Below, one piece after another: positions 5,591 through 60,115 of a stretch of DNA of 64,000 nucleotides; positions within the stretch are counted from its first letter, which is position 1; the number at the start of each line of letters is the position of its first letter. This stretch comes from Lonicera japonica (Eukaryota; Streptophyta; Magnoliopsida; Dipsacales; Caprifoliaceae), in assembly GCA_021464415.1 (NCBI GenBank), contig CM038465.1:22413839-22477838 (forward strand), read 5' to 3'. A model generated the notes under the pieces. The model saw nothing but the letters and a program-made list of their open reading frames with translations, was not told the DNA's origin and did no database searches. The position numbers and the translations under genes are program-made.

Positions 5591-5594
5591 TGAT

Positions 5595-15040: not shown

Positions 15041-15067
15041 GTTGTTGGTTCAGAAAAAGTCCAGACA

Positions 15068-15925: not shown

Positions 15926-15931
15926 ACATTT

Positions 15932-16483: not shown

Positions 16484-16504
16484 CTTCTGTTTGATGGGCC
16501 TAAA

Positions 16505-17840: not shown

Positions 17841-18917
17841 TCAGGTCCGGACAGTGATATGGAGAGCCAGGCTGTGTTTCCTCCCTAATGGAGATAAGTC
17901 TTCATCTGAGAATGACAGACTTCTTTGGATTGTGAGTGACCCAATCATGTTTGGCAGTTGTTCTGGCGTGGAATCGAGTGATATGACGGCCTCGTCAAGG
18001 AGTTTGATAAAGGCGGTCCTGTGAGGTTTGGAGGCAACCAAGAGGCCCCAAATGGTGATGTGTGCCTGAGTTTTCTTCAACTGTTCCAGTACCCGGTCTT
18101 CTCCTATTTCCTTAGGAGGTGGTGATTTCTCGGCATCCATCGATGGTGGCTGGTATACCCTTCCTGAGCGGGTAATCTGTTGTATCCAAAGGGATGATGG
18201 GTCTGATCCTTCTGAGATTTCTGATGTCTCTAGCTCTTCCGACCAACTGAAAGTCCCGGGGGAGGTTTCTGTCGTACAGATTGTCTCCTTAGGGGGGCCT
18301 CGTGGTTTCCACGGCTGTCCCTTCTTCTCCTGGGTCCATCCTATCCCAGATTTTTCGGGATTGGTTTTGATTATGAGTGGTTGCGAGATCCCCTGATTTG
18401 TCTTTCCTAAGCCCTGCCCAGGTAGGAAGTTCATCTTGGCCATCCATTGGTCGATTATCGGATTGAGGCCTGGGGCAACTTGCGCTTTTGCCGGTAGCAT
18501 AACGGGCGCCTTATAGGCTGGGTCATCCCGAATAAGTCCTACGGGGTCAAAGCCTTCTTCATCAGTGGTCAAGGCGTTAATTCCCGCAGGTGGAATATGA
18601 TTGAGAAGGGGGTTGTTGGTAACATTGGGCCCGCCGGGTGCGGGGATGGTTCCAGCTTCAATAAGCTCCTGGATACGATGGCGAAGAGCCAAGCAGCGTT
18701 CCGTGTCATGGCCTGCTGCTTGATGGTATGCACAGTTCTCATTCATTCTCCAGGTGCTGGGAATAGGGTTTGGTGGCGGGCGCGGGTTGAGCGGAGTGAT
18801 TAGTCCGGCCTTTCGGAGTAGTTCCAGGCTTTTGACCAGGGTAGTGGGAAGGGTGCAGAAATTTCTCCTTTTCTTGGCCTCGGTGCTCGAAGAGTCTCCT
18901 TGTGCAGGCCAACTCAT
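17841..18917 (-). pseudogene. E1 gag-pol linker with G-patch-like and zinc-binding-like motifs
   Basis: A 358-residue open frame, Pro-rich at the start. It contains CAYHQAAGHDTERCLALRHR, the CxYHx-H-x4-C type motif that replaces the CCHC knuckle in Tat-type Gag. It also contains MNFLPGQGLGKTNQGI, a G-patch-like motif common at this place in Tat elements. It leads into the protease. The start shown is only the beginning of the open frame. Confidence 0.82.
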
Positions 18918-18979
18918 TGGAAGGACTTGTTGTGACTGTTGAAATGGGTTTTGTTGATACGAGTATGAGCTTAGTTGGT

Positions 18980-20217
18980 TTACGGCTGGAGTGGCTGTCT
19001 TTCTCCGGTGTAAGAGGCTTTCTTGGTATCCGTTTCTGCCTTCTTGGCCAATTCTTCCTCTACTTGTGACCCCATACTCAACAGGGCTCTGAAGTGTGGG
19101 AATACATGCTTTCCCATGCAGTTCAATACAGCTGGAGTAAAATTCTTCTGTATGATCTCCAACTGCTCTTCTTCATCGGGCCGCTTGGACATTTGGGAGG
19201 CCATTTCTCTCCAGCGGGTGACAAAGTCGCTGAAGCTCTTTTCTCGCCTTGCTTGGCCATTTCCAGGTGTTTACAGGTAATTTCCAAATTCTCGTTGGAC
19301 CCGTACTTGGTCATGAACTCCTTGACGATATCCCCCCAAGTTTTCGTGTAGTGTCTCTCCAGATCAAAAAACCATCTCAGGGCGGCCCCCGTGAGAGTCA
19401 TGTGAAAGGCCTGAGCCAGCTCCGGCTCTCCACAGCCGGACACTTGCATGGATCTGATGTAGGATTGGAGATGGGTTTTGGGGGGTGTGGTCCCTGTGAA
19501 TTTGGTGATAGAAGGGAGCTTGAATCCCTGAGGTAGTCTGGCTTCTGGGTAGAGGGAGAAGGCGTTCATATCTGTGATCTCGTCTGCCCCTTTTATTAGA
19601 GAAATACCTCTTTGCAGAACCTTCATCTGCTCTTTCAGTTTCTTCATCTCTTCGCTCTCTCTTGACACCTCGTCGGGCTGTTCCCGAGCTATAACCGATT
19701 CCGCATACACTGCCCGGAGTCGGTTGATGTCTGGGTATTCATTGGGAGGGGCTACTGGGGCCGGTAGTGGAATAGGTCTTGCGGGGACTTGTGGCCATGG
19801 TTGGTATTGGGGATCGAGGCCTTGCTGAGGTTGTGGCCAGATGATGGGTGGCTCTTGTTGTTGGTAAGTGGGGCCTAAATCCGGGGCCCATTGGTTTTGA
19901 TTGTTAGGATCGGTTTGAACGGGACCGGCCATGACGGGGCCCGTTTGGGGGGGATTGGCTCCTGGAACCAGGGGGAGCACTTGCGATGACTGCCCTTGAT
20001 CTCGATTCGGTGGTAGTCGTTCAAACCCCGGTGGTGCGGTCCGTACGGCTGACAATTCCTCTACTCAGACTCAGGTATTCTGTTGCTCGCTTGTGAGGCT
20101 TGCTAGGTTCATGCTGACGGTCGTTAACAGACGGTGCATCTCGGCTAAAGTCGGCTGAGGTGCAGACGCCTCGGCTAGGCTCTGATCTGTCTCTCGGTTC
20201 TCGCGTTCATCGGTCAT
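18980..20217 (-). pseudogene. E1 gag (capsid)
   Basis: The frame can be followed from ATG 20217 (MTDERENRE...), through two TGA codons at 20073-20071 and 20067-20065, into a long open part. That part has a Pro/Gln-rich N-terminus, a heptad-like helix (EEMKKLKEQMKVLQ) and a retrotransposon Gag domain (LTGAALRWFFDLE, TWGDIVKEFMTKYG). Near 19230 an A-run indel shifts the frame; the domain resumes with MASQMSKRPDEEEQLEIIQ down to 18980. Forms the virus-like particle. Pseudogene. Confidence 0.88.
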
Positions 20218-20964: not shown

Positions 20965-22502
20965 TGTGAGAATCCGCAAATGCGACCCCCCGGGTCTCGT
21001 CCCAGTTCGGCTGGGTGTCTGAAACGTCGGAACGGATCCCGTCGTTCCATTTGCTGGAGTGTCTCTGGTGATTCATATCAGGTGTCCCTATGTTCTATTT
21101 CTAGATGCAAAGTGGTTCATTCAGAGTCGCCAGTACGTTTTATGCGAAAACGGACAAAAATGGTTATGTAAGAGGAAAGGCTATAGTTAAGCCTTTCTTT
21201 ACACGTTTGTCTACGAAATCAGGATTCTATAGGGTTCAGAAACTATATTACGGTTTGGGAAGGTGTTAAGCACCCATTCGGCCCTTTCGGTCTCTAGTGG
21301 TCTTATATGTTTATTCTATGTTGAAAAACTTAGATGTTTTTACTGATAGTCTACTACTTTTCCAATGAAAACCCTAATTTCTGGAAAAAAAAACGGGAAA
21401 GGGATAGAAACCTTTGTGTTCCGAGATCCGATGTTTTAGTTTTGAGAAATGCAAATACAAGTGACGAAAAGTTGTTTTCTTTAGAGATGGAGTTTCCCGT
21501 ATTACTTCTCGGATAATGCCGGTTTTCTCGAGTTTTGCTTTGTTTTGGAAAAAGTTTGGATCTTATAGTGGAACTAATTCAATATGGAATTGGAACTCTT
21601 GAGGGGAGTTCTATCGGACGTATCACAATCTATGAAACATATAAGATATACCGGATTTTTAATTCCTAAATAAGTTTTACCGGTCCGGGTTTTGAAAACA
21701 GGATTTTATCCGAATGGTAATGTACTTACTCTTCTGGTTTTGCAAATGGTTTTATCAAGGTCTCTTGTTTTGAAACGATAGACTATTTGTAACTTGGCAA
21801 TAAGTTTATTCAAATAAAACGCGGACAAAACAACGGAAATAAAACAAGTACACAGATATTTAATGTTAAATACTAGAAGAGACTTTCTTTACCTTCCCGA
21901 CGAGAATAGTAATAAGAAAGAAAATATAATACGGCGAAGAGATTTCCGGCGATGATGATCTTTTCATTCTTCAGATATTTTCGAGAATTCGATTCCAGAG
22001 ACGGGACAAGTCGAGTGTCGAGAATAGATTCGATAATTCTTCCGAAATAAGACGATAATAGAGAATGCTCAATAAAAGACTAGAAAATCAAATTTAAAAT
22101 TTAGAATTCTTCAATCCCAAGTTGCTGCCTTGAACCCTTGGGGGGTGTTGGCCTATTTATACTGCTCGGGGAAGATTGTCGCGCGACACTTCTCCAAAAA
22201 GGGCATATGTCGCGCGACAAACGGCTGAAGTGATGTTTCTGACAGATTGATGTGTCAAAGAGTGGATGGTCTGGTGTCAGGGGGGATTGTTGCGCGACAT
22301 AATGGGATTGTCGCGCGACATATCAGTGATTGTCGCGCGACAATGTGATATGTCGTGCGACAATCTCTCTTAAAATCAGATTTATTGGCCAACAAACCCT
22401 TTCGGGGTAGTTTCGGATGCTCGGGTGGGTCCCGGGCCCAAAAATAGTAGTCCTTGAAGGTCGTTAGGGTTCTTGCGGGGGTCACGGATCGGGGTGTCTA
22501 CA
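20965..22502 (-). repeat. E1 5' LTR (1538 bp)
   Basis: Matches 2724-4228 throughout. Begins TGTAGACACC and ends ATTCTCACA on the - strand. The TATA box is on the - strand at about 22152-22163. Six copies of the palindromic box start at 22177, 22208, 22288 (1 mismatch), 22309, 22331 and 22351 (1 mismatch). It keeps about 55 bp at the right end that is missing from the other LTR. Confidence 0.93.
22151..22362 (-). promoter_or_regulatory. E1 5' LTR promoter with six palindromic boxes
   Basis: The TATAAATA on the - strand lies 12-15 bp from the nearest box at 22177-22188. Box spacings are 31, 80, 21, 22 and 20 bp. Compared with the 3' LTR, one box is missing because of a 26-bp length difference between two neighbouring boxes, as expected from slippage or recombination between repeats. 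Confidence 0.75.
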
Positions 22503-33949: not shown

Positions 33950-36900
33950 TCAAATCTCGTTGGGCGTTAACCCCATCCCTTTCGAGGTGTTAAGCACCTT
34001 CTCTCTCGTTAGTCCTTTCGTCAAAGGATCGGCCAATTTTTTCTCAGACCGCACATAATCCACTCTTACAGCACCTTTGGAGAGTAACTCTCTAACCGTG
34101 CTGTGTTTACGATGAATTTGTCGTTTCTTACCGTTATAGTAACGGTTCTGAACTTTTGCAATAGCCGCGGTACTATCGCAGTGGATAAGGACAGCTGGGA
34201 TCGGTCTCTCCCATAGAGGGGTATCTACAAGAAAGCTTCTCAGCTAGCTTGCTTCTTCACTAGCAGCAGCTAGTGCTATCATCTCAGACTCCATCGTATA
34301 CTGGGCCAAAATGGTCTGTTTCTTAGATTTCCAAGAAACTGCACCTCCAGCAATGCTGAAAATATATCCACTTGTGGCCTTGAAATCTTCTGACAGGGTA
34401 TTCCAGTTAGCATCGCTATATCCTTCTAGGACAGCGGGAAACTTTTGATAGTGTAACTTTAGGTCCATGGTTCTTTTTAAATAACGCATGACCCTCTCAA
34501 TAGCATGCCAATGCTCTATACTAGGACTGCTAGTAAACCTACATAGTACCCCCACTACATAAGCAATATCGGGCCTAGTGCAATCAGTAGCGTATCGAAG
34601 GCTACCAATGATGCTCGCATACTCAGTTTGTCTAACACTGTCTCCAGTGTTCTTGAACAACTTCACACTAGGATCATATGGAGTACATGCTGGTTTACAA
34701 TCTGAGTAATTATATTTCCTTAGAATCTTCTCAATGTAATGAGATTGATCCAAAGAAAGTCCCTTTTCCGTCCTAGTAATTTTAATCCCTAAAATTACAT
34801 TGGCTTCTCCCAAATCCTTCATATCAAAATTTTCACATAGCATGGATTTCACATTATTAACTACATGGATATTAGAACAAAAAATAAGCAAGTCATCAAC
34901 ATACAAACATATAATAGTGCAAGCATTATTCTCAGTCTTATAATAAATGCATTTATCACTTTCATTAATTCTAAATCCATTTGCAATAATCAATGCATCA
35001 AATTTCTCATGCCATTGCTTAGGAGCCTTTCAAACCATAAAGGGATTTATCTAATTTGCATACTTTTTGTTCTTGGCCTGTAATAAAGAATCCTTTAGGT
35101 TGTTCCATGTAAATTTCTTCTTCTAATTCTCCATTAAGGAAAGCGGTTTTAATATCCATTTGATGCACAACAAGATCATGCAAGGAAGCCAGGGCAATCA
35201 AAACACGTATAGATGTTATTCTAGTAACGGGAGAATAAGTATCAAAGAAATCTACATTTTCACGTTGTCTATAACCCTTGACAACTAAACGTGCTTTGTA
35301 TTTGTCAACAGTGCCATCAGGTTTTAATTTCTTTTTAAGTATCCACTTACAACCTATGGTTTTACAACCAGGAGGAAGGTCTACTAGGTTCCACGTTCTA
35401 TTTGATTCTAAGGAATCCATTTCATCGTTAATGGCTTCTTGCCAAAGGTCAGCATCTAAAGAAGATAACGCTTCTTGAATAGTGGATGGATCATCTTCTA
35501 AAGTGTATGCATAAAAATCAGGCCCAAAGTCTTTAGTGGTTCTAACTCTTTTACTTTTCTTAGGTTCAATTGATGTATCATGGTACACAGTACTAGTAGG
35601 TAAAGTAGAGCTAGAAGGTAGTGAGCTACCCCCACTATTCTTCAATTTAAAAGGAAATTATCTTCAAAAAAGTCTACATCATTAGATTCAATAATAACAT
35701 GATTTTTCAAATCATAAAATCTGTAGGCCTTACTATTAATTGTATATCCGATAAAAACACATTCATAAGCTCTACTAGCAAGCTTAGATCTTTTAGGATC
35801 AGGAATACGTACATAAGAAAGGCACCCCCAAACGCGTAAATAAGAAATATTAGGCCTTTTATTATTTAAAATCTCATAGGGGGTAAATTAGATTTAATCT
35901 TAGGCACTCTGTTAAGAATGTGACAAACGGTTAATAAAATCTCTCCCCACCAATGTGAGGCAGCCCCCGAATTTAGTAGCGTAGTAACAATTAATTCGGC
36001 AAAAGTTCTATTTTTCCTTTCGACTTTTCCATTCATTTCAGGTGAATATGGAGCAGTCGTCTCATGAATAATACCAAGTGAAGTATATAGATTTTTAAAA
36101 TCAGTTGAATCATATTCGGTTCCTCTATCACTCCGAAATCTTTTTATTTTCTTATTAAACTGATTTTCAATTTCTGTAGAAAATATTTTAAACATATCTA
36201 TTGCTTCACTTTTATTTTTCATAAGGTAAATATAGGAAAAATTCGAATTATCATCAATAAAAGTAATAAAATACCTTTTTTCATTTCTCGTTAAAACACC
36301 ATCAAATTCATAAATATCCGAATGAATTAATTCAAAAGGTTCAGTTTCTCTTAAAACAGATTTGTGAGGTGTTTTAGTAATCTTTGCTTGGCTACAAAAT
36401 TCACATTTTTCGAAATCATTTAAAGATAAGGGGGGAATAAATTCCAGTTTACTCATGTTCTTAATAAGGCGCTTATTAACATGACAAAGTCTAGCATGCC
36501 ACACATTAAATGAACAAATCATATAAGCAGAACTAGAAACAATTTTATTAACATCAACATTCAACTTAAACATCCTATCACAAGCATAACCCTTCCCCAC
36601 AAATACACCATTCTTCGTAAGAGTAAACAAATCTGCCCCAATAGTTTGAACAAATCCAGCTTTATTAAGGATGTAACCCGAAACAAGATTCTTCCTAATT
36701 TCTGGAGTATGCAGAACATCCTTAAGGATGACAGTCTTTCCAGAAGTGAATTTCAACTCGACATCACCCATCCCAGCAACATTAGTGGTGTGGGAATCAC
36801 CCAACAACACTTTCTTATCAACAGCATGAGAATAGGTCTTAAATAAAGCACGATCATGGCATACATAACGAGAGGCGCCAGTATCTACCCACCAGCCTTC

Positions 36901-37892
36901 AGAACCCGATACCAGATTAATTTCTGTTATCATAGCCACTAAGGGCTCTTCTTCAGTAACATTCGCATGAGGAACTCGGCGTTTGTTTCGACAATTTCTT
37001 GCCATATGACCAGGCTTTCCACAGTGATAGCAAGAGAACACATTGTTATTATTAATATTATTATTATTATTATTATTATTATTAGCCTGGCCATTTTTGT
37101 TTTGGTTCTGAGTTTGGTTATTCCTATTCTGGTTCCCAAACCGGATCGCATTATTTCCACTGTTATGATTTTTCATATTTTTCCGGTTCGGCCTTAGAGC
37201 AGGAGGGGTGTTGTTCGAGCGATTCTGATTTTGATTACGGTTCTGATTTTTGTTAAAAATAACCAGAACCTCATCATTCCGATTTTGCTTACGGTTTTCC
37301 TCTTCAATCCTGAATTTTGTAATCAAACTTTCAAATGAAAACTCCTTAGATTTGTGACGCAAACTATTTTTAAAATCTTTCCATCCAGGGGTAATTTATC
37401 AATCAAAACTGCCACTTGAAACTGCTCATCAAATTTCATCCCTTCAGAAATAATCTCATGTGTAATTTTCTGAAGTTCGTGAGACTGTGTAACAATAGAC
37501 TTGTCGTCCGTCATCTGATATTTCAGATAACGACTGACAGCGTATTTTTTAGACCCAGCCTCTTCGGTGTCATATTTCTTTTGGAGTGAATCCCAAATTT
37601 CTTTTGCGGATTTGCACGGGAGGTAAACATCATAAAGCTCGTCATGAAGAGCATTCAAGATCAGATTTCTGCATGCATAATCATTGTCTTCCCATGTTTT
37701 GAGAGTCTTATGATCTGCCTCAGAACTCGGATTAGGGAAGGTGGGTTTTTCAGAAACACAAGTAGATTCCACCTTCTTAAGAGTTAAGTAAAAAAACATT
37801 TTTTGTTTCTACCTCCTAAAGTACAGACCCTCAAATTTAAAAGGTTGATTCAATGAGCCAGAAGCAGCAGCTTGATTATGTTCATTAGCCAT
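33950..37892 (-). pseudogene. Copia A gag-pol polyprotein, decayed
   Basis: Frame from ATG 37892 (MANEHNQAAASG) to TGA 33952-33950. Order: Gag (UBN2-type, WDSLQKKYDTEEAG), Asn-rich tract from (ATT)n at 37046-37084, CCHC knuckle (CYHCGKPGHMARNC), protease (WWVDTGASRYVCHD), GAG-pre-integrase, integrase core (HSDIYEFDG, then FRSDRGTEYDS, then NGKVERKNRTF), RT (KARLVVKGYRQRENVDFFDT, then [10 protein letters not shown]) and RNase H (YSDANWNT, then DPLTKGL). Lesions: TAG at codon 28, frameshifts near 37370, 35875, 35650 and 35020 (2-nt loss), and TAG at 34246-34244. Integrase before RT confirms Ty1/copia. Confidence 0.93.
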
Positions 37893-37938
37893 GACAACAG
37901 TTATACAAAAAATAGCAGAAAAGAAATTGTCTTAAAAT

Positions 37939-38746
37939 TGTTGAAAAATATGAACTGCAGAATCAAGAATAGATTAGGTAGAGAGTACACCGGGTTGAGT
38001 CGCGGACTAAGTCGCTCTCTTTAAGATGTTTTGTGGCTCTGGCCGGAATTGTGCTAGCAGTTCTGAATATGCCACACCGTCCCCATGATGAAACAGCCCA
38101 AAAACTCTCTGTACGATCGATGTGCACGCTTTCGATCGCTCGACAATAACACTCTTTTAATTGCTCAGGATCGGAAAAATTTTCTACCGCCGGAGGCTAA
38201 AAAATTTTTTCTGTCGAAAAATATTTTTGTAGATGGATCTCTCCATTGGTTTTTGGTTCAGTCTGTGTATATATTTTGAAAGCTATTTTGATCCGTTTAA
38301 AGGGGAAAGTGTTGTGACCAAAAAACAACTTTCCGGAAAAACCGAAAGAAAACACGGAGGGAATTAATGGAGCGTGTTGGAGGAAATCAAGGGAGCGTGC
38401 AGAGGAGATTGCGGAACAAAATAAGGGAGCCTTGTCCCCCTATTAATTTTTATTTAATAAATAAAATTCTTTAAATGTATTTTGTATAAAAAGATACTAC
38501 ACTACACAAGCTCGAGACCGGGTGGTCGGTCGGCGCGCGTGTGGGGAACCACATTCATCCAAGTCCTCACCCAATAACACAAAAGTGTAATGCCCAAAGG
38601 GCTCAAACCCTTAAGCAAATTCTTTCATATGAAAACCCATGAAAGGTTTTATATCTCTCCTATGTGGGACTTGGGATAACATCACATCACATTAAATCAC
38701 TTTGTCTTGGTTTAATTTTTTTTCTTTAAATACAAAAGCTCCAACA
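37939..38746 (-). repeat. Copia A 5' LTR
   Basis: Starts TGTTGA (mutated from TGTTGG) and ends CTCCAACA in + coordinates; next to TSD GGTAT at 38747. Shares the 32741-type open frame with the 3' LTR, confirming homology. Confidence 0.92.
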
Positions 38747-43694: not shown

Positions 43695-43802
43695 GAGCCG
43701 AGTACACCGCTACCGGAGGCTGCCGTGCTTCTTACCTACATTGATGGCCAAGAGTTAAACTTACCAGTCAACCTTGATCGATTAAAGAAATACTACCAGT
43801 AA
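43695..43802 (+). pseudogene. E2 integrase C-terminal tail
   Basis: 35 codons ending PVNLDRLKKYYQ and TAA at 43800-43802. This is the same ending as E1 integrase. The upstream coding part was lost by truncation. Confidence 0.85.
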
Positions 43803-44134: not shown

Positions 44135-45367
44135 TCAGTCAGAAGCGGGGTACAAAATCCTCTCTCGGTCCATAGTCTGATATGAAGCAAGTACTGTCTC
44201 CTCCGTCACCCGTGAGTCCGCAAACCTGAACCACCTCATCATCATCGGCTCGTGCTCGATGGTCTGACGAACTCGACGCCAAACATGTAGTACAACGTCA
44301 GACCGGGTCACCTGGGTAATGCCGAGCTCTCCTCCATGGAATCGACGAACAAAACGAGTAGACCAAAGACCTCGTAAAGTCGTCTCCAACCTCGGGGTAA
44401 TAGGCAGCGCAACCGAAGAAAAATCTCTAAGGGGGAGGGGTATACTCAGAGGAAGGCCGAACTGTCTAGTCAACCGGCTGGGTATGTAGAACGATGTCTC
44501 TCGTAAACCACGGAATCGGAGGTAGTTCTGCCCACCCATACTCATGATCATGGTCCTCATGCGCCACCATGGGATATCCCAACGAATCGACGAAGAAGAC
44601 TCAGAAAAACGCACAGCCCAGTCAAAGGATGACAAACGATGGATCAGAGCATAGTCGGGACGAAGAAAGAAGTGCCGGGAATCCCAGGGAAGTCGAATCC
44701 CCAAATACCGAAATCTCTCAGTAACCCACATATACAACATATATGGGCTACCCCGAAAATGGCTAAGTCGGCACTGAACCACGGCATCCAGACCATTTAG
44801 TGTCTCCGCCAGTAAGATGGGAGTCACCAAATGGCCGCATCTAGCCTCAGATACAACCCGAATAATAAGAGGATCAACCATAATCGCATCATCAGTAACT
44901 AACAGCATCTGAGAAAAAGTAAAGATCATATAGGCAGTAGTCCGACCTGAAAAATAAGCAGGATCATCGCCATGCTGCAGGAAGAAATCAGCCAGGCGAC
45001 GCAAGTGGAGCCGTCCGTCTACAATCATCGGTCGGCACTCACTCTCTCGCAAACCCAAAAACTCCGCCAGCATAACCCGAGGGCTCCTCGCATCCCGCAA
45101 AGACGCCAACGGCAATGAGAGGTCCTGGCGCATCAGCAAAGTGAACTCCTCGATCGTAGGGCAGAGCTCGTCTAACCCAATACGGAAGCAATGATCCTCA
45201 GCATCCCAGAACTCAGCCAAACCAAGCAGGAACGAATAGTTGATCTCGTGCGAGCACCAACGGTGAAGGTGGCTCAAGTCGCCCCAGTTGAGACCACAGT
45301 CGGCCTCGAACAAAGACACAAAATCGGACAAGAGGGAAAATGCAGCATTGGTACGGAAGATAGACAT
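44135..45367 (-). CDS. Gene B of E2: intact PMD-like (possibly DUF7745-type) protein
   Basis: An uninterrupted frame of 410 residues. I choose ATG 45367 (MSIFRTN) because it aligns with the E1 start (MSSYRTK); the upstream open codons lie at or before the predicted transcription start. Motifs in order: LNWGDLSHLHRWC (about 27), FLLGLAEFWD (about 50), GLDELCPTIEEFTLLM (about 65), LLAETLNG (about 170), LYMWVTERFRYLG (about 195), SIRWDIPWWRM (about 250) and GGQNYLRFRGL (about 268). The protein is rich in Arg and aromatic residues and has no transmembrane segment. E1 holds a homologue with two stops. The frame survives although the element has lost nearly all of pol. It is antisense to pol and driven by its own boxed promoter. 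Function unknown; nucleic-acid-related action is inferred from the PMD link and context. Confidence 0.82.
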   Translation of the reverse strand: MSIFRTNAAFSLLSDFVSLFEADCGLNWGDLSHLHRWCSHEINYSFLLGLAEFWDAEDHCFRIGLDELCPTIEEFTLLMRQDLSLPLASLRDARSPRVMLAEFLGLRESECRPMIVDGRLHLRRLADFFLQHGDDPAYFSGRTTAYMIFTFSQMLLVTDDAIMVDPLIIRVVSEARCGHLVTPILLAETLNGLDAVVQCRLSHFRGSPYMLYMWVTERFRYLGIRLPWDSRHFFLRPDYALIHRLSSFDWAVRFSESSSSIRWDIPWWRMRTMIMSMGGQNYLRFRGLRETSFYIPSRLTRQFGLPLSIPLPLRDFSSVALPITPRLETTLRGLWSTRFVRRFHGGELGITQVTRSDVVLHVWRRVRQTIEHEPMMMRWFRFADSRVTEETVLASYQTMDRERILYPASD

Positions 45368-45454: not shown

Positions 45455-45590
45455 CTATTTATAGCAAAAATGCACAGGCCAACCGCACGGCTGGCTGCCA
45501 ACCGCACGGCTGCCCTACCAACCGTACGGCTGGCTCCCAACCGTACGGCTACCCCTTGCGGGTAGGGCGTGCGGTTGGCTCTCCCCCTTA
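45455..45590 (-). promoter_or_regulatory. Promoter of gene B in E2: TATA plus four phased CCGYACGG boxes
   Basis: On the - strand a TATAAATAG lies at 45464-45455. Upstream, AACCGCACGGCT at 45481 and 45500 and AACCGTACGGCT at 45520 and 45539 (positions on the + strand) are spaced 19, 20 and 19 bp. Two more half-sites follow at about 45560-45580. None of the E1 boxes (TGTCGCGCGACA) occur here. Confidence 0.75.
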
Positions 45591-45968
45591 GCCAAAAATC
45601 TCCGTTTTTCCAAATCTTTGTTTTCCAAAATTCTTCTTCACAATAATACATTATGGTATGAATGTTGCCAGACTCTATTCAGGAAGAACGATCCATTCAT
45701 TGCATGCATATAAATTTAATAATCACTTGCCAACACGAGTACTTGACCATTTTTGTAATTAAATTCAGTCACTCTTAACGATCCTTTCGCATATATTTAA
45801 TAATTTCGCCAATGCATATAATTAATTAATCATCTTTCATTTTAATCAAGTTCGTAATGTTTTTGCCAACATATGTTATATAACCGTTTCTTCCAAACAC
45901 ACTCACAATAATATTATAACATTCGCAACACATCACACGCAAACATGTTTTCTCTAAAGAAGCATAAA

Positions 45969-45999
<31 letters not shown>

Positions 46000-46176
46000 A
46001 TTTTATTATTTTATTATCAAAACCGGTCACACTAATAAACCAACATTTTTTCCTAACAAAACAAACACATTTTAAATTAACCACTAAATTAACAAAGTTT
46101 TTTATTAAAATCAAAACATAAACTAAATTAACTACTTAAAATGTCTTTCCTAAAACAAAACCATCACTAAAAAATG
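45591..46176. other. Spacer between genes B and A of E2
   Basis: AT-rich non-coding sequence with a (TTTA)n microsatellite at about 45970-46015. No gene seen. Confidence 0.6.
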
Positions 46177-49100
46177 TCAACGCTGAGGGGCCGGGGGAGG
46201 ATCCATCGTGCGCGGTCGCTTCGCTTCTGTTTCTCCAACACCCTCTGCTGGGCTCTCCGAGACCGCACGACCCTCGCCATGAGGAGAAGGACCAAGCCGG
46301 GATGTACGCCTCGACTGCTGGACTGACTGGGACGGCGCCGCCGATCGGGACAGCGAGCGTGACGGATGGTAGGTGACAGTCGTATCGCCCGCCAAACGCC
46401 TGCTGTACCGCCCCATGTACTCCGTCGGAAAGGGAGCCGCGAACGTCAGCAGTCCGTACATGTTGAAGTAGCTCCTCAGCAACTCAGCTACCTCGCGAAG
46501 TCGGAATAAGCCCATCTGCCACAAAACCAATTTGTTAGTTATCATTCACAATAATTCACATATACTTAACTTTTTAAAGGATAACATACCTCCTCGTCCG
46601 AGACGTGCGCTAGGGCCCCCATTCGCTCGTCGTCCACAGGCACATCGGGAATCCGGTAGCTCTTCGGTAAACCGAGATCCAGGTAAGGAATGTCTCGCGG
46701 GTACTCCGGGAGCGAGTAGGACGTCGACGCCCCACCAGCCTGTGACGGACCAGCTCCACCAGCGCCGCCCGCCGGGGGTGTGTCCTCCCCGGTATCCTCT
46801 CCTATCTCCGGCTCGGGCGCCACCGCTTTGCCTTTCCCCTTGTCGCCGCCCTCACCGGCCGGAGTCTGACCAATGCCCACCTCCACTCCCAGCTGGACTT
46901 CCCTCTCTCGTAACTCCCGAAAGACTATACCGCGAGCCGCTCCGGAGGAAGGGGTAGACAACGAATAGGGCCTCAACCCTACTGATCCAGCGCCGGGCGA
47001 CCCCACGGGCGTGCGCAGCAAAGGCGAGAATGATACGTGCTGAGCCCAATCCATGTCGTCAGACCCATACACAGGTGATGATCCAGTCATAGACCCACGT
47101 CCCTCGGGTGTCTGCGCCGACTCCAGCATCTGTCGTATATCCTCCGAAGACAACTGGGGTGTCCTCCCTGCCATCGCTGGTGGAATGGGCGGCCTCGATA
47201 TGGGACTACAACCTCCCAATGGACTCCTCCCGCCCCTCGTGGCCCTACCTCGCCCTGGCAAGACCGCAGCAGTCGGCCCCTTGACCCCTCCTCCGCCTGA
47301 CCCACCCGGGGGCGATCCACCGTTGCCTCCTCCCAAGGGGACCTCCTCCGACCCCCTTTCGTCCTCCTCCTCCTCCTCGTCCACATGTTGCGGCTCCTCA
47401 TCCCTCTCGCCATGCGGATCTTCATCGTCCAAATCTGCAATCCCCTTCGCCCTCCGATTCGGCGCGGGAGCGGGCTGGTGTGGGACCCTCTGTGAGATGT
47501 ACAGCTGCCCCCAGATGAACAATGGATCTCCCCCGATGGCAGCGTACCTCGCATATATCACCCGGCCGCGCACGCCCTTCATCTTCCTCATCAAATAGCG
47601 ATGCGCGAACGTCCCGTACTCCCCCTCAACCAGTAAGCCCTCCATCGGGACCCCTCCCAAGAACGAGGCCCGCTCCTCTGAAGACAGCATGACCGGCCGC
47701 CTCATCGCCGCTGGAGGCCAGGCCGGAACCCTAAAGCCTAGCCCGGGGGTGTGCTGCCGCACCACGCGCTCCCCTAGGTAGAAAGCCGCACCGTACTCAT
47801 GCAAAAATAGTCGCCTCGAGCGAGCCGCCGCCAACGCATCTGCATACCCCCACTGCTGCGTCACGAATGCGGGCCATGGGCTCCACTGCACCTGTCACAT
47901 TAAACATGCGCTAATAAATAACTCAACTTTCTTTTTCAAAATATAACTTAAATCTCAGTTAAGTCAATCTCATACCCGATCTAGCTGAAGACCTGAGACG
48001 TCGCCTGCACTGACGTCGGGGGTCAGATATCGATACACCCCAACTATGTTCCCGCTGTAATATCGTCTGAAGAGTGGGAACTCATCTGCGAAGGTCGGGT
48101 GCAGATGGATCTGACCAAAACCCTGATGGGTATGCGCAATGAACCACATCTGTTGCAAATTATCACAATTATTAAAACCATCAATATTTATAATCACACA
48201 CTTTTCTCATAAAAAAGAATGATAATTGAGTTTTTAATTTAAGTAATTTACCTCCCAAAGTGTGACCAGCCCGCGGTGATTGAGCTCCATATGCCGGCAC
48301 ACCAAGTCCATCGACTCGTACAGCACCGCCAGTACATAACCTCCCCAGGCAAATGTGTACAGCTGATCGAAGAACCGCAAGTACGGCAGCCACCATAGCC
48401 GTAGGTTGTCGCCGCCCCGTGCATAGAAGAAGTCGTGTATCAATAGCAGTATAAAGCACCGAGACAGCTGCCGGACCTCCTGCCGTGTCATCGGTCCATC
48501 CCCAAGCCTCTCGCTCTCCACCTCGATGTGATGAACCATAGCCGTGTGAGGTATCCCGTCTGCCACGATCCGACTCGGCCTCCAACCTAGTGCCGCTCCC
48601 ATCCCATCTAGTGTAACTCGCAACCGGGGGTTGGGGGCCAGAGCCTCTCCTCCGAATGGCAGTCCCGTCAGCACGAATACGTCCTCCGGGGTCAGCGTCA
48701 TCTCGCCCCAACTCCAATGGAAGGTGTGTGTCGTATCCCACCATCTCTCTCCCAGTACTGTAGGCAGACTCACCAATCGCTGGAACTCTCCGCCCGGCAG
48801 CACCTCGATAAATCATTTGAACGGGGTCGTGCTCAAATAGGCCCTCACCAGCGGGGGTAACTGATCTCGTAGCTCGGGCGCGGCACGTGTGAAACCGCGG
48901 CAACGTCCAATCCTCTGTAACAATCACGTGTTTTAATAAAATTTAGAACTCACTATTTAATACTGGATAATACAGATTTTAAGTAAACTATGTTAAGTAT
49001 GTCGATTATGGCAAGTAATTATTAAATTTATCATATTTCATGCATATCATGACATTGCATATTTTAAAACATCATATAGCATGAAAATCAGCATATACCC

Positions 49101-49404
49101 GAGTACGGCGACGGATCTCGTGTGCCGCAGGTTCCATCAGTAGCCACTCCCGTCCCTCTCCCGGCGAGATCAAGGGCACGTCACGATACATCGCTCGCTG
49201 CAGCGACCCGTCTGCCCCTAGTGGCCCCTCCCAGGCCACCCCCTCCCAATTGTCGTGGTGGCTAGCACATACCAGTCGTCCATCCATCATCGCCGTGATA
49301 GAGTCCATCTCATCACCAGGGAGTAGCTCCGTCGCCTCCCCGCCCTCCGGTGGGCCCCCCATCATCATATAAACGAAAATCGATAGTAGTCTCGTAAATG
49401 CCAT
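46177..49404 (-). pseudogene. Gene A of E2: five-exon PMD protein with a single in-frame stop
   Basis: Exons on the - strand: 49404-49099, 48914-48252, 48149-47976, 47891-46590, 46515-46177. All GT-AG and phase 0. Exon lengths 306, 663, 174, 1302 and 339 nt give 927 codons. Exon 1 has the HEIRRR end and NWEG.AWEGPLGAD region shared with E1. Exon 2 carries the PMD core: WWDTTHTFHWSWGEMTLTPE then DVFVLTGLPFGG, and further LWWLPYLRFFDQLY. Exon 4 has an acidic stretch and Gly/Pro/Ser-rich low complexity. Exon 5 ends with a basic AKRPR motif (possible NLS). The only lesion I see is TGA at 48815-48813 (residue 136), where the context suggests a Trp codon; it is one G-to-A change. It could be a sequencing error, a null allele or an early pseudogene. 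An in-frame start further in (MMMGG) is also possible. Confidence 0.8.
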
Positions 49405-49510
49405 CACTCACACTCGTTAAAAAACTCACAAAATATTTTTGAAAATCGGATATTTATATGCTAGAGAGAGAGATTGCAAGAAGAAGTGACGAGAATGATC
49501 CAAGCAGAGG

Positions 49511-49640
49511 CCTATTTATAAGATTTGGACGCCAGCCGCAGGCTAGCCAACCGTACGGCTAGCCCCCAACCGTACGGTTGGCTGCCAGCCGTACGGCTGG
49601 GGGGTCAGGCCTGCGGCTACCCCGTGCGGCTACCCTCATT
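49511..49640 (-). promoter_or_regulatory. Promoter of gene A in E2: TATA plus three phased CCGTACGG boxes
   Basis: On the - strand CTTATAAATAGG lies at 49522-49511. Boxes AACCGTACGGCT (49549), AACCGTACGGTT (49568, perfect palindrome) and AGCCGTACGGCT (49587, perfect palindrome) are exactly 19 bp apart. Half-sites (AGCCGCA, TGCGGCTA) flank them. The gene A ATG is about 107 bp downstream of the TATA. Confidence 0.75.
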
Positions 49641-50469
49641 TTTGACCAGTTTGACTTAAAAAAAAAAAAGTGAAGGGAAAAATAAACAAAGTTCTGAACC
49701 AATCTTTTCCAACATAAGAGGATCAAGACTCACACACAAGCACGAAATGACTGATCAAAGCCCAAAGTTCGACACTCCAAGGACTGTGGAGGAACCGAAG
49801 TTCAAAAGGATAGATCTATTGTCCGGAAGGCTCGAATCTGATTTATAAACAGGGAAGGTGTAAAAGAGGAATCGAGTACTAGAAAAAATTGAAAGAGTAA
49901 AAAAGGGTAAAATCCCGTTGGTCCAAGAGAGAAAAAAAAAGTAAGAAAAACAGAACTAAAGAAAATCGACAGGGAGAGCCACACTAAGAGTGACAGCTGT
50001 GCCAAAAGGCGGAGGGCTACATGTTAGGTGAGTAAGGCTCCTGTCTTGGAAAAAGCCAAGAAAGAAAAGGCAAAGTAAAGTCCGAAAGTCCAAAAATAAA
50101 AAGGGCCGGATAATCAAAAGAGGGAGCAATAAGGGTATCGAAAAACAGAAAACGATACAGGACCAGCATCTTCCCTGTAGAAAAAATCAGAGGGTAGCTT
50201 GAGGATGATTGGGAAATCCCAGCGAAGTTCTATCCCCACAACCGAAGAGAGGAAGACTGAGGGTAGAGAAAAGTCAGATCCCCACAACGGTCCGAATGTC
50301 TTAGGAAAAGTTTATTCAAAATTCTGATTCCCGATAAAGCCAAAGGTCAAAACTGAGGGTAGAAAAGAATGGGAAAGAAAAGGCACTCCAACTTGCGAAA
50401 CATTTCTCTCTAGCATGTTATTTTTTATAAACCAATAAAGCAGTAGCGGAACCATGGCAATGAGACAAG
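49641..50469. other. E2 3' untranslated spacer
   Basis: Purine-rich on the + strand with no gene seen. It corresponds in position to the T/C-rich 4790-5590 stretch of E1, which is read on the other strand. Confidence 0.55.
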
Positions 50470-51380
50470 GTTAGTAATTTTCTCGGATTCCTCTGAGTTA
50501 GGAATTCTTCGCATTCCCCACGATGGGAATTTATCCGAAACCACTTTCCCCACGAAAGGAAATAACGACTCCACGTGTTCCCCACGAAGGGTATTTTCTT
50601 GGATTCCTCTGAGTTAGGAATTCTTCGCATTCCCCACGATGGGAATTTTTCCGAAACCACTTTCCCCACGAAGGGAAATAACGACTCCACGTGTTCCCCA
50701 CGAAGGAAAATAACGACTCCACATGTTCCCCACGAAGGGAATTTTCTCAGATTCCTCTGAGTTAGGAATTCTTCGCATTCCCCACGATGGGAATTTTTCC
50801 GAAACCACTTTCCCCACGAAGGGAAATAACGACTCCACGTGTTCCCCACGAAGGAAAATAACGACTCCACATGTTCCCCACGAAGGGAATTTTCTCGGAT
50901 TCCTCTGAGTTAGGAATTCTTCGCATTCCCCACGATGGGAATTTTTCCAAAACCACTTTCCCCACGAAGGGAAATAACGACTCCACGTATTCCCCACGAA
51001 GGGAATTTTCTCGGATTTCTCTAAGTTAGGAATTCTTCGCATTCCCCACGATGGGAATTTTTTCGAAACCACTTTCCCCACGAAGGGAAATAACGACTCC
51101 ACGTGTTCCCCACGAAGGGAATTTTCTCGGATTCCTCTGAGTTAGGAATTCTTCGCATTCTCCACAATGGGAATTTTTCCAAAACCACTTTCCCCACGAA
51201 GGGAAATAACGACTCCACGTGTTCCCCACGAAGGGAATTTTTTTCGAATTCCTCAAGGTAGGAATTCTTCGCATTCCCCACGATGGGAATTTTTTCCGAT
51301 CCCTTTTCCCCACGAAGGGAAATAACCTGTACCGTGCTTTCCCCATGAAGGGAACAACTTTATCCCTGCACTCCCCATGA
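50470..51380. repeat. E2 3' minisatellite (compound, units of about 115-150 bp)
   Basis: Higher-order array. The short module TTCCCCACGAAGGGAA or TTCCCCACGATGGGAA is repeated about every 35-50 bp, and the modules form larger units containing GATTCCTCTGAGTTAGGAAT and AATAACGACTCCACGTGTT. At least seven large units. The module itself is nearly palindromic (TTCCC...GGGAA). Long open frames on both strands across it are by-products of the repeat. Confidence 0.92.
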
Positions 51381-51814
51381 TGGGAGTTTTCAAACTTCTC
51401 AAAAGACATTGATTTCTTCTGACTCCAGATCCCCACAATGGATGCATCACCAAACCTCAAAACACTCTTTTACTTTTGGGAAACCTTTAAAGCACTTTTC
51501 CGTTACGATCATTTGGACCCAACAAATTGTCGAAACTTCTCCCATAGAGTCTTATACACTGAGGGTGGTGTGCCACTGAGGGTAGCATGCCACTGAGGGT
51601 AGACTGATGAAAAGGCTGATGTTTCGTGTCGACTGGCCGAAAGGAAATGGGCGGTCGTGGATTGCGTCGCCTAAAATACAACGAGATCCATATGCCAGAA
51701 AGGGTGCATTTTGATTCGATTATCACCGCATTGAGATTCACCCGAGAGTCGTGAATTGTTGTCTTCTTATCGTCCCTGAATTCTTGCCAGCAAGAATCCC
51801 AGGACGAGAGGGTC
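51381..51814. other. E2 end of 3' UTR and polypurine tract
   Basis: Non-coding. It contains GAGGGTGGTGTGCCACTGAGGGTAGCATGCCACTGAGGGTAG direct repeats at about 51560-51600. The purine-rich GACGAGAGGGTC at 51803-51814 abuts the LTR and shares CGAGAGGGTC with E1. A 12-nt GAGTCGTG inverted repeat lies around it. Confidence 0.6.
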
Positions 51815-53175
51815 TGTGAACACCCCAATCCACGACTCTCGTGTGAACACTGGTTTTCTTAAAACAAGCATCTCGCATTAAGTATCGAGTCATCATACAT
51901 ATAGAAGACCGTTAGGAAAAGACTCCATTTCCGGACGCGTTGAGAGTCTAATATAACCTTTGTTGACTCAATTTCCAGGTCGCGGGGTGCGGGGCAGCGC
52001 CCCGTTAGAAAATTAGGTTTTTTCCGAGTGTTCCCGTGCATTTTTGTGAGCCAACCGCAGCCCCCAGCCGCACGCTCCCAGCCGTACGGTTACCTGCCAG
52101 CCGTACGGTTGGTACCCTAGCCGCACGCCCCAGCCGCACGCGCCAGCCGCACGACCCAGCCGCACGCCCTAACCGCACGCCGCAGCCGCATGCCCTGCGG
52201 CTACCCCCAACCGCACACTCCCAGCCGCACGCCCTGCGGCTACCCCCTGCGGTTGGCCTCTTTTGGAGCGTTTTTGGCGGAATTTATGCTATAAATAGGA
52301 CCCTTGGGATCCCATTTGAAGGCATCAACACTCAATAGTGTTTTTAGTAAGTAGGAACTCTGTCAAAATTATTAGAGAGTCATTTTAGAGAAATTCTGAG
52401 AGAAAGTTTCCGAGAGAGAATTTCTGAGAGAGAATTTTTAGAAAGAGAAAATCTTGAGAGAGAAAGTTCTAGAGAGAGAAGGAAGCAAGCAAGGCAACAA
52501 GGCAAGGCTCTCATTTCTTCGGCAAGCGCATCAGGTACATCTATCTACAACCTTTCTGAATTTCAATATCGCATTTAAGTATTCATTTTTAATATAGAAA
52601 ATTAGATAACTTGCAAAGAAGTTCATTGCTTTCAAAATAAATCCTTTCTAAATTTTATAAGAAATCTAAAATCTGCTTTGACACGTTTTCAAAACAAAAC
52701 AAAAATACAAAAACAGTTTCCTAACAAGTGGAACTACGAGACTCTGATTTCATTCTACGAATGAATACGTAGGCGCTCGCAAAGCTCGAGTCTGGTTTCA
52801 AAATATTGTTTTAATCTAAATTCATCCAGAAAGGACTATTGTACAAACTATTGAAACTACTTGCAAGATATCTAAAATAGGAATTAAATACATGATCCAT
52901 TAAGAGATCGAAAGGGCGAATTGGGTGCCTAACACCTTCCCAATTCGTAACGTAGTTCCCGAACCCTAGCAAAGTATTTTAAATGAATCTCTGGTTTTAA
53001 ACGTATGAACAATAATTCATTTTCGAATTGTCTTTCGTACGATCTTTTGTTTGTTTTCTCGTAAAACAAACTGGCGACTCTACAAAACACACGTTTTCCT
53101 TTAAAAACAATTGAAAAGCGAGAACGGAGGATTCTCTCTCTCTCTCTCGGGGGCCGGGGGGTCCGGATTCCCACA
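51815..53175 (+). repeat. E2 3' LTR (about 1361 bp)
   Basis: Starts TGTGAACACCCC next to the GAGAGGGTC tract and ends CGGATTCCCACA. In U5 it shares GGTGCCTAACACCTTCCCAA, ACTGGCGACTCT and a GGGGGTCCGGATTC end with the E1 LTR. The TATA is at 52290-52297 on the + strand. The end could be 53175 or 53177 because of a CACACA run. There is no second LTR copy in the window. Confidence 0.82.
52050..52297 (+). promoter_or_regulatory. E2 LTR promoter with about a dozen CCGYACG boxes
   Basis: AGCCGTACGGTT occurs at 52080 and 52099 (19 bp apart). About ten half-sites of the form AGCCGCACG or CTGCGGCTA follow at intervals of roughly 12-14 bp up to 52260. TATAAATA lies at 52290, about 30 bp past the last half-site. 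Same design as the gene A and gene B promoters of E2. Confidence 0.75.
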
Positions 53176-55713: not shown

Positions 55714-56340
55714 TGTTAAAGTTAATGCTTTATTTTAAATATGTATTTTTATTAATTATGTTATGTTTGGACACAAGTTTTGTAAAGCTTCTCTAGGAAG
55801 CCTTCTTTTGTATTCTCTAGAAAGTGTCTAGGAACTTATTGAATCTAGAAAAATCTGATGGGAGTGTTAAAAAGGCACTATCCTCTCTTTTCATAATAAG
55901 AGATGATCCTTCTCTATTATCTTTGTTGATTGAGCTCCTTTAATATTTTATATATATACAAATTTCCTCTCTTACTATAGAAGCTACATTAACAATTAAT
56001 CCAACATAAATTGGTATCAGAGCTTCAGATCAAAAAGGATCTCTTGTTGTGAAGAAGAAAAAGAAAAGTTTCTATTTAAAATCAAAAGCTTCAGAACTGC
56101 GAAAAATCAGCCATGGCCAGCTCAAGTAACACAAGTATAAGCATTCAACAACCTCTATCCCAATATTTGAAGAGTATGACTTTGGTGTATTAAGATAAAA
56201 CCTTGTTTATATCTCAAAATGTTTGGGATTTAGTTGAAAATGGGTATGAAGAACCCGAATCAACACAAACACTAACAAATGTCCAAAAAGAACAATTAAA
56301 AGATGTTAAACAAAGGGATGCTAGAGCTCTCCTTTTCATT
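55714..56340 (+). mobile_element. Copia C remnant: LTR, PBS and start of gag
   Basis: A short LTR at 55714-56006 (TGTTAAAG ... CCAACA), then a perfect initiator-Met PBS TTGGTATCAGAGC at 56011-56023. Gag starts at ATG 56113 (MASSSNTSISIQQPLSQYLK) with one TAA near 56190. It ends in RALLFIQQ at the junction with copia B. The small LTR and PBS are typical of plant Ty1/copia. Confidence 0.85.
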
Positions 56341-58074
56341 CAACAGTGCCATCAGGTTTTAATTTCTTTTTAAGTATCCACTTACAACTTATGGTTTTAC
56401 AACCAGGAGGAAGGTCTACTAGATGCCAAGTTCTATTTGATTCTAAGGAATCCATTTCATCGTTAATGGCTTCTTGCCAAAGGTCAGCCTCTAAAGAAGA
56501 CAATGCTTCTTGAATAGTGGATGGATCATCTTCTAAAGTGTATGCACAAAAATCAGGCCCAAAGTCTTTATTGGTTCTAACTCTTTTACTTTTCCTAGGT
56601 TCAACTGATGTATCATGGTGCACGGTACTGGCAGGTAAGATAGAGCTAGAAGGTAGTGAGCTACCCCCACTATTCTTCAATTCAAAAGGGAATTTATTTT
56701 CATAGAAATCTACATCATTAGATTCAATAATAACTTGATTTTTCATGTTATAAAATTTATATGCCTTGCTATTAACTGCATAACCAATAAAAGCACATTC
56801 ATAGGCACGACTAGCAAGTTTAGACCTTTTAGGATCAGGTATACGCACATAAGCAAGACAGCCCCAAACACGTAAATGAGAAATATTGGGTTTCTTATTT
56901 TTAAGAATTTCATATGGGGACACTTTCAATTTTGTTTTAGGCACACAATTAAGGATATGGCAAACAGTCAATAATATTTCTCCCCACCAATGATTAGCAG
57001 CTCCTGAATTCAACAAAGTGGGAACTATTAATTCAACAAATGTTCTATTTTTTCTTTCAGCTTTTCCATTCATTTCAGGAGAATAGGGAGCAGTTGTCTC
57101 ATGAATAATTCCATGGTGAGCATAGAAATTAATAAAATCAGTTGAGTTATATTCAGTGCCTCTATCACTACGTAATCTCTTTATATTCGTACTAAACTGA
57201 TTTTTAACTTCAGATATGAATACTTTAAACATATCAATTGCTTCACTTTTATTTTTCATGAGATAAACATATGTGTAATTTGAATTATCATCAATAAAAG
57301 TAATGAAATACCGTTTTCCATTACGAGTTAAAACACCATCAAATTGACATATATCAGAATGAATTAAATCAAACGGTTCAGATTCTCTAGTGACAGATTT
57401 ATGTGGCGTTTTTCTAATTTCAGCTTGGCTACATAATTCACATTTTTCGAAATCATCAAGTGACAGTAGTGGAATCAGTCCTATATTACTCATGTTCTTA
57501 ATTAAACGTTTATTCACATGACAAAGGCTAGCATGCCAAATATTAAAAGAACACAACATATAAGTAGAAGTGATTTTATTAGCCTCAGCGTTCAACTTGA
57601 ACATCCCCTCACACGCATAACCCTTTCCCACAAATACACCATTTTTAGTTAGAGTAAACAAATCTGCCCCAATGGTTTGAACAAAGCCAACTTTATTAAG
57701 GAAGTAACCCGAAACAAGATTCTTCCTAATTTCTAGAGTATGCAGAACATCCTTAAGGACGATAGTCTTTCTAGAAGTAAATTTTAACTCGACATCACCT
57801 GTGCCAGCAACATTAGTGGTGTGGGAATCAGCCAACAACACTTTCTTATCCACAGTATCAGAATAGGTTTTAAACAGAGCACGATCATGGCAGATATGGC
57901 GAGAGGCGCCAGTATCCACCCACCATCCTTCAGAACCAGATAGCAGATTAATTTATGTTATCATAGCCACTAAGGGCTCTTCTTTAGTAACATTTGCCTG
58001 AGGAACTCTGCGTTTGTTTTAACAATTTCTTGCCATATGACCAGGCTTTTCATAGTGATAGCAAGAGAACACAC

Positions 58075-58147
<73 letters not shown>

Positions 58148-58956
58148 GCCTGGCCATTTATGTTTTGGTTCTGAGTTTGGTTGTTTCTATTCTGGTTCCC
58201 ATACCAGATCGCATTATTTCCACCGTTATGATTTTTCATATTTTTTTGGTTTGGCCTCAGAGCAGGAGGGGTGTTGTTCAAGCGATTTTGATTTTGATTA
58301 CGGTTATGATTTTTGTTAAAAACAACCAGAACCTCATCATTCCGATCTTGCTTACAGTTTTCCTCCTCAATCCTGAAGTTTGTAATCAAACTTTCAAGTA
58401 AAAACTCTTTAGATTTGTGACGCAAACTATTTTTAAAATCTTTCCAGCCATGGGGTAATTTATCAATCAAAACTACCACTTGAAACTGCTCATCAAATTT
58501 CACCCCTTTAGAAATAATCTCATGTGCAATTTTCTGAAGTTCGTGAGACTGTGTAACAATAGACTTGTCGTCCGTCATCTGAAATTTCAGATAACGAATG
58601 ACAGCATATTTTTTACACCCAGCCTCTTCAGTGTCATATTTCTTTTGAAACGAATCCCAAATTTCTTTTGCGGATTTGTACGGGAGGTAAACATCATAAA
58701 GCTCGTCATGAAGAGCATTCAAGATCAGATTTCTGCAAGCATAATCATTGTCTTCCCAAGTTTTGAGAGTCTTATGATCTGCCTCATAAATCGGATTAGG
58801 GAAGGTGGGTTTTTCAAAAACACAAGCAGATTCCACCTTCTAAAGAGTTAAGTAAAAAAACATTTTTTGTTTCCACCTCTTAAAGTGCAGACCCTCAAAT
58901 TTGAAAGGTTGATTCAATGAGCCAGAAGCAGCAGATTGTTTATGTTCATTAGCCAT
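56338..58956 (-). pseudogene. Copia B gag-pol (gag, protease, integrase, start of RT)
   Basis: Same family as copia A. Frame from ATG 58956; Gag (WDSFQKKYDTEEAG), then an (ATT)n tract at 58078-58147 that is longer than in A and shifts frame, so Asn codons become Ile codons. The knuckle is broken (second Cys to Tyr, then a stop). Protease DTGASRHICHD, integrase core HSDICQFDG ... RSDRGTEYNS ... NGKAERKNRTF, then WKYILKKK-type RT start ending at KPDGTV. TAG near 58843. The rest of RT, RNase H and the 3' LTR are deleted at the junction at 56338. Confidence 0.92.
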
Positions 58957-58999
58957 GACAGAAGTTACAAGAAATAGCAGATAAGGAACGTCTTAAAAT

Positions 59000-59725
59000 T
59001 GTTGTTTAAATATGAACTGCAGAATCAAAATAGACAAGGTAGAGAGTACACCGGGTTGAGTCGCGGACTAAGTCTCTCTCTTTAAGACGTTTCGCGGCTC
59101 TGCCCGGAATTGTGCTAGCAGTTCTGATTATGCCATGCCGTCCCCAGGATGAAACAGCCCAGATACCCTCCGTACAATCGCTCGACAATAACGCTCTTTT
59201 AATTGCTCGGGATCGGAAAATTTTTACAGCCGGAGGCTTAATTGTTTCTTCCTTGTCGGAAGCAAAAAAAATTTTAAGGCTCTTTTAAGATTTTCGTTAA
59301 AATAAAGTTATTTTTTGAAAACTATTTTTGATCCGTTTAAAAGGGATAAAGTTCAAACCAAGAAATCACTTTGAGGAAAATCCGCAAAGGTGGAAGAAAA
59401 CACGGAGGAAATTATGGGAGCGTGTGGAGGAAAATGAGGGAGCCTTTTCTCTTTCCTTTTTTTTATTTAATAAATAAAATTCTTTAAATGTATTTTGTAT
59501 AAAATGATAATACACTACACACGACAAGCCCAAGTCCTCACCCAATAGTACAAAAGTGTAATGCTCAAAGGGCTTAAGCCCTTAAGCAAATTCTACCATA
59601 TAAAGACCCATGAAAGGTTTTTATATCTCTCCTACGTGGGACTTGGGATAACATTACATCATCACATCACACACATCACATCACATTCAATCTTTGTTTT
59701 GTTTTTGTTTTTTATCTTTAAATAC
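59000..59725 (-). repeat. Copia B 5' LTR, right end degraded
   Basis: Homologous to the copia A LTRs: TGTTG start, GAGTACACCGGGTTGAGTCG, TTCTTTAAATGTATTTTG and CTTTAAATACA blocks. It has several indels, and the terminal CTCCAACA is missing, so the outer end is only approximate. Confidence 0.85.
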
Positions 59726-60115
59726 ACAAAACACTTAAATATTATATATAAGAATTATGTATGTATTCCGAAAAGACTTGTTTTCTAATGCGATGCCCCA
59801 TTAGTGTGGTACCAGATGTTTATGGACTGCAATAACCACTTGAAAATGAACCAGTTTTTATTTATTATAGCATATCAGAAATACTAGCTAAGAAGTAAAA
59901 ATTGACAAGAAGATCGAGAACGAGTGCCTTACATATATGTTTGACAACAATTAAACAATATATAGTTTAATACCTAACTTATCCGCTAGAGTCAGATATA
60001 TAATATATAATTATGTGACATTGGAAAACAAAGATACAACACAACCAAACCATAGATATATATATATATACACAAATAGAAACACACACATAGTAGCACT
60101 AGAAGATGACGTTAT
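59726..60115. other. AT-rich intergenic sequence
   Basis: No gene seen. It ends with GTTAT (60111-60115), the left target duplication of the next solo LTR. Confidence 0.55.

Follow-up and report, generated by a model that had tools for sequence, protein, structure and literature searches.

A 64,000-nucleotide stretch of Lonicera japonica DNA from contig CM038465.1 (the window) contains two Ty3-type retrotransposons embedded in plant DNA, E1 on the minus strand and E2 on the plus strand, and each of them repeats its own palindrome upstream of the TATA boxes of three promoters: that of the long terminal repeat (LTR) and those of two accessory genes, A and B. In both elements the accessory genes are antisense to pol and occupy the region from pol to the 3′ LTR. 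The palindromes probably serve as address labels by which an element recognizes its own DNA, and we judge it reasonably likely that these Tat/Ogre retrotransposons carry a VANC-like system in which each element has its own regulator and its own palindrome set.

A preliminary description of this DNA had placed palindromic boxes before the TATA of gene B, gene A and the LTR in E2, and scans of the whole window located them there. The gene B array (45478–45550, minus strand) consists of four boxes at 45481, 45500, 45520 and 45539, with CCGCACGG as the plus-strand sequence of those at 45481 and 45500, and the gene A array (49547–49598, minus strand) consists of three at 49549, 49568 and 49587. The LTR boxes (52054–52259, plus strand) comprise full sites at 52080 and 52099 and numerous half-sites, many of them CCAGCCGCACG at 13-bp steps. 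Spacings of 19, 20 and 19 bp in gene B, 19 and 19 bp in gene A, and 19 bp between the starts of the two full LTR sites bear out the 19–20-bp repeat and the 19-bp LTR distance described before; TRF independently called the gene B and gene A arrays as period-19 repeats and reported a CCCCAGCCGCACG half-site array with a 13-bp period at 52115–52234. There are nine full 12-bp sites (four, three and two in gene B, gene A and the LTR, respectively), and a tenth site at 49622 has the 8-bp core alone. The box sequences quoted earlier are each present exactly once; the family itself is real, and its commonest form in the promoter direction is AGCCGT(A/G)CGGTT, found at seven of the nine full sites. The asymmetric sites (AGCC...GGTT, also seven of the nine) share one orientation relative to transcription in all seven cases, an agreement that counts as three independent promoters at most because adjacent sites are duplicates. 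Exact copies of CCGTACGG number seven in E2 against a mean of 0.03 in 40 dinucleotide shuffles, and at up to one mismatch the count is 10 against 2.48; when the promoters were shuffled singly (500 shuffles), counts of 3, 2 and 2 compared with 0.00–0.01.

The boxes of E1 are of a different type. TGTCGCGCGACA has 12 exact occurrences in E1 and none in 40 dinucleotide shuffles, and at up to three mismatches all 18 occurrences of the E1 14-mer in the window lie in E1 promoters: seven and six in the two LTRs (boxes at 3934–4143 and 22176–22363, minus strand), three in the gene A promoter (5594–5660, plus strand; boxes at 5594, 5624 and 5647, TATA at 5671) and two in the gene B promoter (11831–11876, plus strand; boxes at 11831 and 11863, TATA at 11902). 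E1 boxes are indeed absent from E2, where TGTCGCGCGACA has no match at up to one mismatch and one at up to three, with 2.62 expected, and neither element has an exact box of the other in its promoters. CCGTACGG has one exact copy in E1, at 20041 within gag, and the E1 12-mer that is most E2-like near a promoter (5770, two mismatches) is downstream of the gene A TATA. Both palindromes keep a dyad-centered CGNNCG core when compared by eye (CGCGCG in E1, CGTACG in E2), a weak hint of shared descent.

The promoters that carry these differing boxes are themselves alike. E1 (11893) and E2 (45456–45472, minus strand) have the same gene B core promoter, CATTTTTGCTATAAATA, and the changed boxes lie 16 bp away from it in E1 and 8 bp away in E2. 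Non-coding DNA upstream of gene A is 70% identical over 301 columns, and the LTRs have a 66-bp island in common at 83% identity. The promoters are therefore homologous, and what has been replaced in them is the boxes. The conserved stretch upstream of gene A spans 5070–5345 in E1 and 49880–50168 in E2, with the differing boxes situated between it and the gene. Homology of the coding cassettes, as asserted previously, is evident from the B proteins, which are 41% identical over 407 positions; identity this low indicates that E1 and E2 are two old families and that the box swap is not recent. The proposal that the motif had been exchanged as a set across three promoters is upheld by the scans and shuffles described above.

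How a set might change together is suggested by the arrays of E1. The gene A array aligns with the LTR boxes at 3934, 3965 and 3987 over 76 columns, spacers included, and one such spacer, TGTGTCCA, has two further occurrences in the window with both strands counted. With boxes and spacing fixed and the other letters shuffled, 20 of 5000 shuffles reached the alignment score, for a pair picked as the best of six E1 comparisons among 12 in all (300 shuffles each). The two arrays are on the same DNA strand and have opposite directions of transcription. Site-by-site point mutation, which the preliminary description had already thought unlikely, is a poor explanation in view of these common spacers. 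The two E1 LTRs differ from each other by one 22-bp box unit. Alignment of the E1 gene A and gene B arrays is weak (p = 0.047 and 0.023; 300 shuffles), and the six E2 comparisons (p = 0.003 to 0.02) are given less weight since the spacers there are simple GC-rich DNA.

Gene B of E2 (44135–45367, minus strand) is an open reading frame (ORF) of 410 amino acids that belongs to the DUF7745/PMD superfamily, with a PMD score under the Pfam cut-off, and one structure model of modest confidence predicts for it a VANC21-like fold. VANC21 is absent from the PDB sequence matches, and DUF1985 is not among the eight families reported for 24 members. Relatives of gene B were found neither in viral_contigs (25 pattern-matching stretches, none a relative) nor among 122 stretches of genome_contigs. 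The E1 14-mer has matches in 65 stretches of IMG/VR contigs in viral_contigs. A DUF7745/PMD protein filed under the bacterium Modestobacter lapidis (P0009, on a 933-base contig) is probably plant contamination. E2 gene A (46177–49404, minus strand; TATA box at 49513–49520) is spliced, with exons and ends assigned by eye and one in-frame stop in exon 2. It carries a PMD at 48234–48803 (2.8e-22), and one of its four matches is named MAINTENANCE OF MERISTEMS-like. The profiles of gene A and gene B align to each other. In E1, gene B (11948–13205, plus strand) is degraded by in-frame stops, and gene A (5825–11507, plus strand) has introns, one with a large insertion, its likeness to E2 gene A having been judged by eye. 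An intron of this gene holds ~69-bp repeats at 6202–7045 and 8660–8909, split by ~1.6 kb of other DNA.

The closest parallel is the VANDAL/VANC system of Arabidopsis MULE DNA transposons, in which, as in E1 and E2, a short element-specific motif is repeated in the family's own non-coding DNA and differs between families. VANC21 binds YAGTATTAY, VANC6 targets carry AGTTGTCC/AC, and the arrays evolve as tandem repeats, which drive turnover (PMC5735166). PMC12859917 and PMC8756742 refer to a VANC structure not yet published and to its co-evolution with the DNA it targets; PMC10398659 and PMC6419827 are further background. The present hosts differ in being LTR retrotransposons with LTRs, gag, reverse transcriptase and integrase, and their sites are 12–16-bp palindromes at three promoters as opposed to 8–9-bp motifs such as YAGTATTAY or AGTTGTCC. 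No sequence similarity between gene B and VANC was found; the likeness to the VANC system lies in the motif arrays and a predicted fold.

Among retrotransposons, Ogre/Tat Ty3 elements with PMD extra ORFs (eORF-3′R) share with E1 the order of reverse transcriptase, RNase H, additional RNase H and integrase, and a PMD ORF that runs antisense in the region from pol to the 3′ LTR is a further common feature, the Pfam match here being that of E2 gene A; PMD is reported in 57% of Ogre elements (PMC6317226), the PMD-A1 and A2 clades are confined to Gypsy elements (PMC5418596), and the accessible text describes no shared palindromes or promoter set for Ogre. The PMD ORF of E2 gene A runs opposite to both the pol remnant and the LTR, as in Ogre elements with such an ORF. 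Retand elements, too, have tandem repeats and antisense ORFs in the interval from pol to the 3′ LTR; the role of these TRP28 ORFs is not known, and a regulatory one has been suggested (PMC11963269). The accessory genes here are instead PMD/DUF7745 genes, and TRP28 (PF04195) is not among the families reported for A and B. Many retrotransposons of the Tat lineage carry accessory genes in antisense, of a function that is not known (PMC6317226, PMC11963269); those of E1 and E2 can now be paired with a concrete candidate DNA target and a predicted structural link to a well-studied transposon anti-silencing protein. Among the papers listed, none on palindrome sets in PMD retrotransposons or on a link between PMD and the VANC fold was recognized by title or abstract, in literature from which subscription journals were largely missing.

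From the box sets and their positions, the retained core promoter, the array copying in E1, the cassette homology and the predicted fold of B, we infer a mechanism that involves binding by B, dimerization, anti-silencing or demethylation, and co-evolution. Each element would encode its own sequence-specific regulator, most likely the product of gene B, perhaps in concert with that of its PMD relative gene A. The regulator would recognize the element-specific box upstream of TATA at the LTR, gene A and gene B promoters, and the palindromic form of the site makes binding as a dimer probable. Binding would keep the three promoters unmethylated or opened, and active, in the manner of VANC at VANDAL transposons; its action would be limited to copies with the same box. 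As the specificity of the protein drifted, the boxes would follow as a set, and arrays whose units are duplicated, lost and passed from one promoter to another could leave E1 and E2 with different palindromes beside otherwise conserved core promoters. Repeated spread and co-evolution with a changing binder had been offered previously as alternatives; there is evidence for both, copying in the E1 arrays and a changing binder in the VANC21-like predicted fold of B, and the choice is not an either/or. CpG decay is alike inside the E1 boxes (4 of 17) and outside them (19 of 70). A copy that has since fallen silent would be expected to show this, and it lends no direct support to the mechanism.

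Two further promoters could be read, in part, through protein models. P0005 from Lonicera macranthoides, found by protein search, is 89% identical to E1-B, and its gene model begins too early, so that the promoter is translated; its first 41 residues match the translated E1 promoter. The E1 12-mer is readable at both of the corresponding places and nowhere else (500 residue shuffles gave a mean of 0.00; protein only), and both fit despite changed residues between them. P0023, close to E2-B (71% over 22% of it), has a 52-residue upstream extension; no E1 box and no full E2 12-mer is readable there, and the 8-bp E2 core can be read at two places (0.44 expected). Its boxes may be of a third type or of the E2 type in decay, or the extension may lie outside the array. 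Among these few cases E1 and P0005 agree, E2 differs, and P0023 matches neither palindrome in full, so that the E2 clade itself may have seen changes of box type. P0023 runs counter to a simple rule of box type by protein clade. Against general copying, the E1 gene B array aligns with the LTR no better than shuffled sequences do (p = 0.41 and 0.68; 300 shuffles), so that copying between promoters is not shown for every pair. The evidence as a whole comes from two elements, these two partial promoters and the single structure model. Early-starting gene models can keep readable promoter copies in protein databases and could be used to recover box types from other annotated genomes.

The boxes could instead be host transcription factor sites. 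Each family would then have recruited a host factor of its own, one for all three promoters, and the accessory proteins would do something else. LTRs commonly recruit host factors, and in six of the seven arrays the nearest full box is 10–28 bp from TATA (10 for E1 A, 25 for E1 B, 14 for each E1 LTR, 17 for E2 B and 28 for E2 A), a normal proximal-promoter position. The E2 LTR has only its two full sites, 179 bp from the TATA box (52290–52296, plus strand), with half-sites of both orientations in between, the closest ~36 bp away. The E2 core contains GTAC, which is also the core of SBP/SPL sites. The 12-bp palindrome of E1 is not known to match any plant factor site. A full change at all three promoters beside an identical gene B core promoter is easier if one element-encoded factor changes, and the predicted fold of B matches a DNA-binding transposon protein; we regard capture of host factors as unlikely.

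Neutral concerted evolution would require no dedicated binder: CpG-rich palindromic minisatellites would grow and be transferred among promoters through template switching or gene conversion. Such a process would account for array copying and contraction in E1 and for the short tandem periods in E2, and tandem repeats are frequent in Tat-lineage Retand elements (PMC11963269). It does not readily explain why there are arrays before the TATA box of all three promoters when the long E2 array at 50477–51354 matches itself alone in a window self-BLAST, why palindrome symmetry is retained while spacers vary, or why P0005 fits the E1 box at both places although intervening residues changed, and we consider it improbable. 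That the boxes are host silencing targets (for example symmetric CpG methylation seeds or MAIN/MAIL1 complex sites), with the accessory PMD proteins as decoys of that complex, is very improbable: MAIN and MAIL1 are PMD proteins required for silencing of transposable elements (TEs) (PMC7156037, PMC5418596) and each palindrome has two or more CpGs, yet an element should lose such sites, not multiply and copy them, and the enriched promoter motif is found only among down-regulated genes (PMC7156037).

If the VANC-like reading is true, sequence-specific anti-silencing is not peculiar to VANDAL and runs in LTR retrotransposons too, host PMD silencing proteins may be domesticated DNA readers, and many families with their own palindromes would be a natural experiment on the joint change of a DNA-binding protein and a dispersed set of sites. 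Gene A resembles host MAIN/MAIL1 in its PMD and in the match so named; the host proteins differ from retrotransposon genes in silencing TEs, and their DNA binding is left open in PMC7156037, which reports that the genes whose expression falls in host PMD mutants are enriched for a ‘DOWN’ promoter motif. PMD is described as a domain of unknown function, and TEs may use their own PMDs against silencing (review, PMC8616336). We put forward, tentatively, the broader possibility that the whole PMD/DUF7745 superfamily, MAIN and MAIL1 included, has the VANC fold and binds DNA sequence-specifically, Ty3 elements using it for self-recognition and anti-silencing via fast-changing palindromes and plants having domesticated one branch for silencing. 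The MAIN-linked ‘DOWN’ motif would then be the host counterpart of the boxes.

The remainder of E1 comprises a 5′ LTR (20965–22502) and a 3′ LTR (2724–4228), diverged by ~5%, and gag and pol (13445–20055), all on the minus strand. RVT_1 (15932–16483) and RT_RNaseH (15068–15925) are followed by RVT_3 and rve within 13445–15040, which gives the Tat order with an additional RNase H between RNase H and integrase. In E2 the end of pol is all that is present, a C-terminal integrase remnant (43725–43802, plus strand) read by eye, so the RNase H order is readable in E1 and not in E2; tblastn with the E1 gag-pol ORFs found no match elsewhere in the window at an E value of 1e-3. The E2 3′ LTR (51815–53175, plus strand) has the ends TGTGAACA...TTCCCACA, with no second copy in the window by self-BLAST. 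The array at 50477–51354, between E2 gene A and the 3′ LTR, is built of 116/148-bp tandem units and is rich in a 16-bp inverted repeat, TTCCCCACGA(A/T)GGGAA (18 matches, counting one variant at 51339); its analogue in E1 differs (GCCTC..GGGAGG, eight matches at 4411–4670). The window also holds two copia-type elements, at 34244–38746 and 56336–59729, with ~84% identity.
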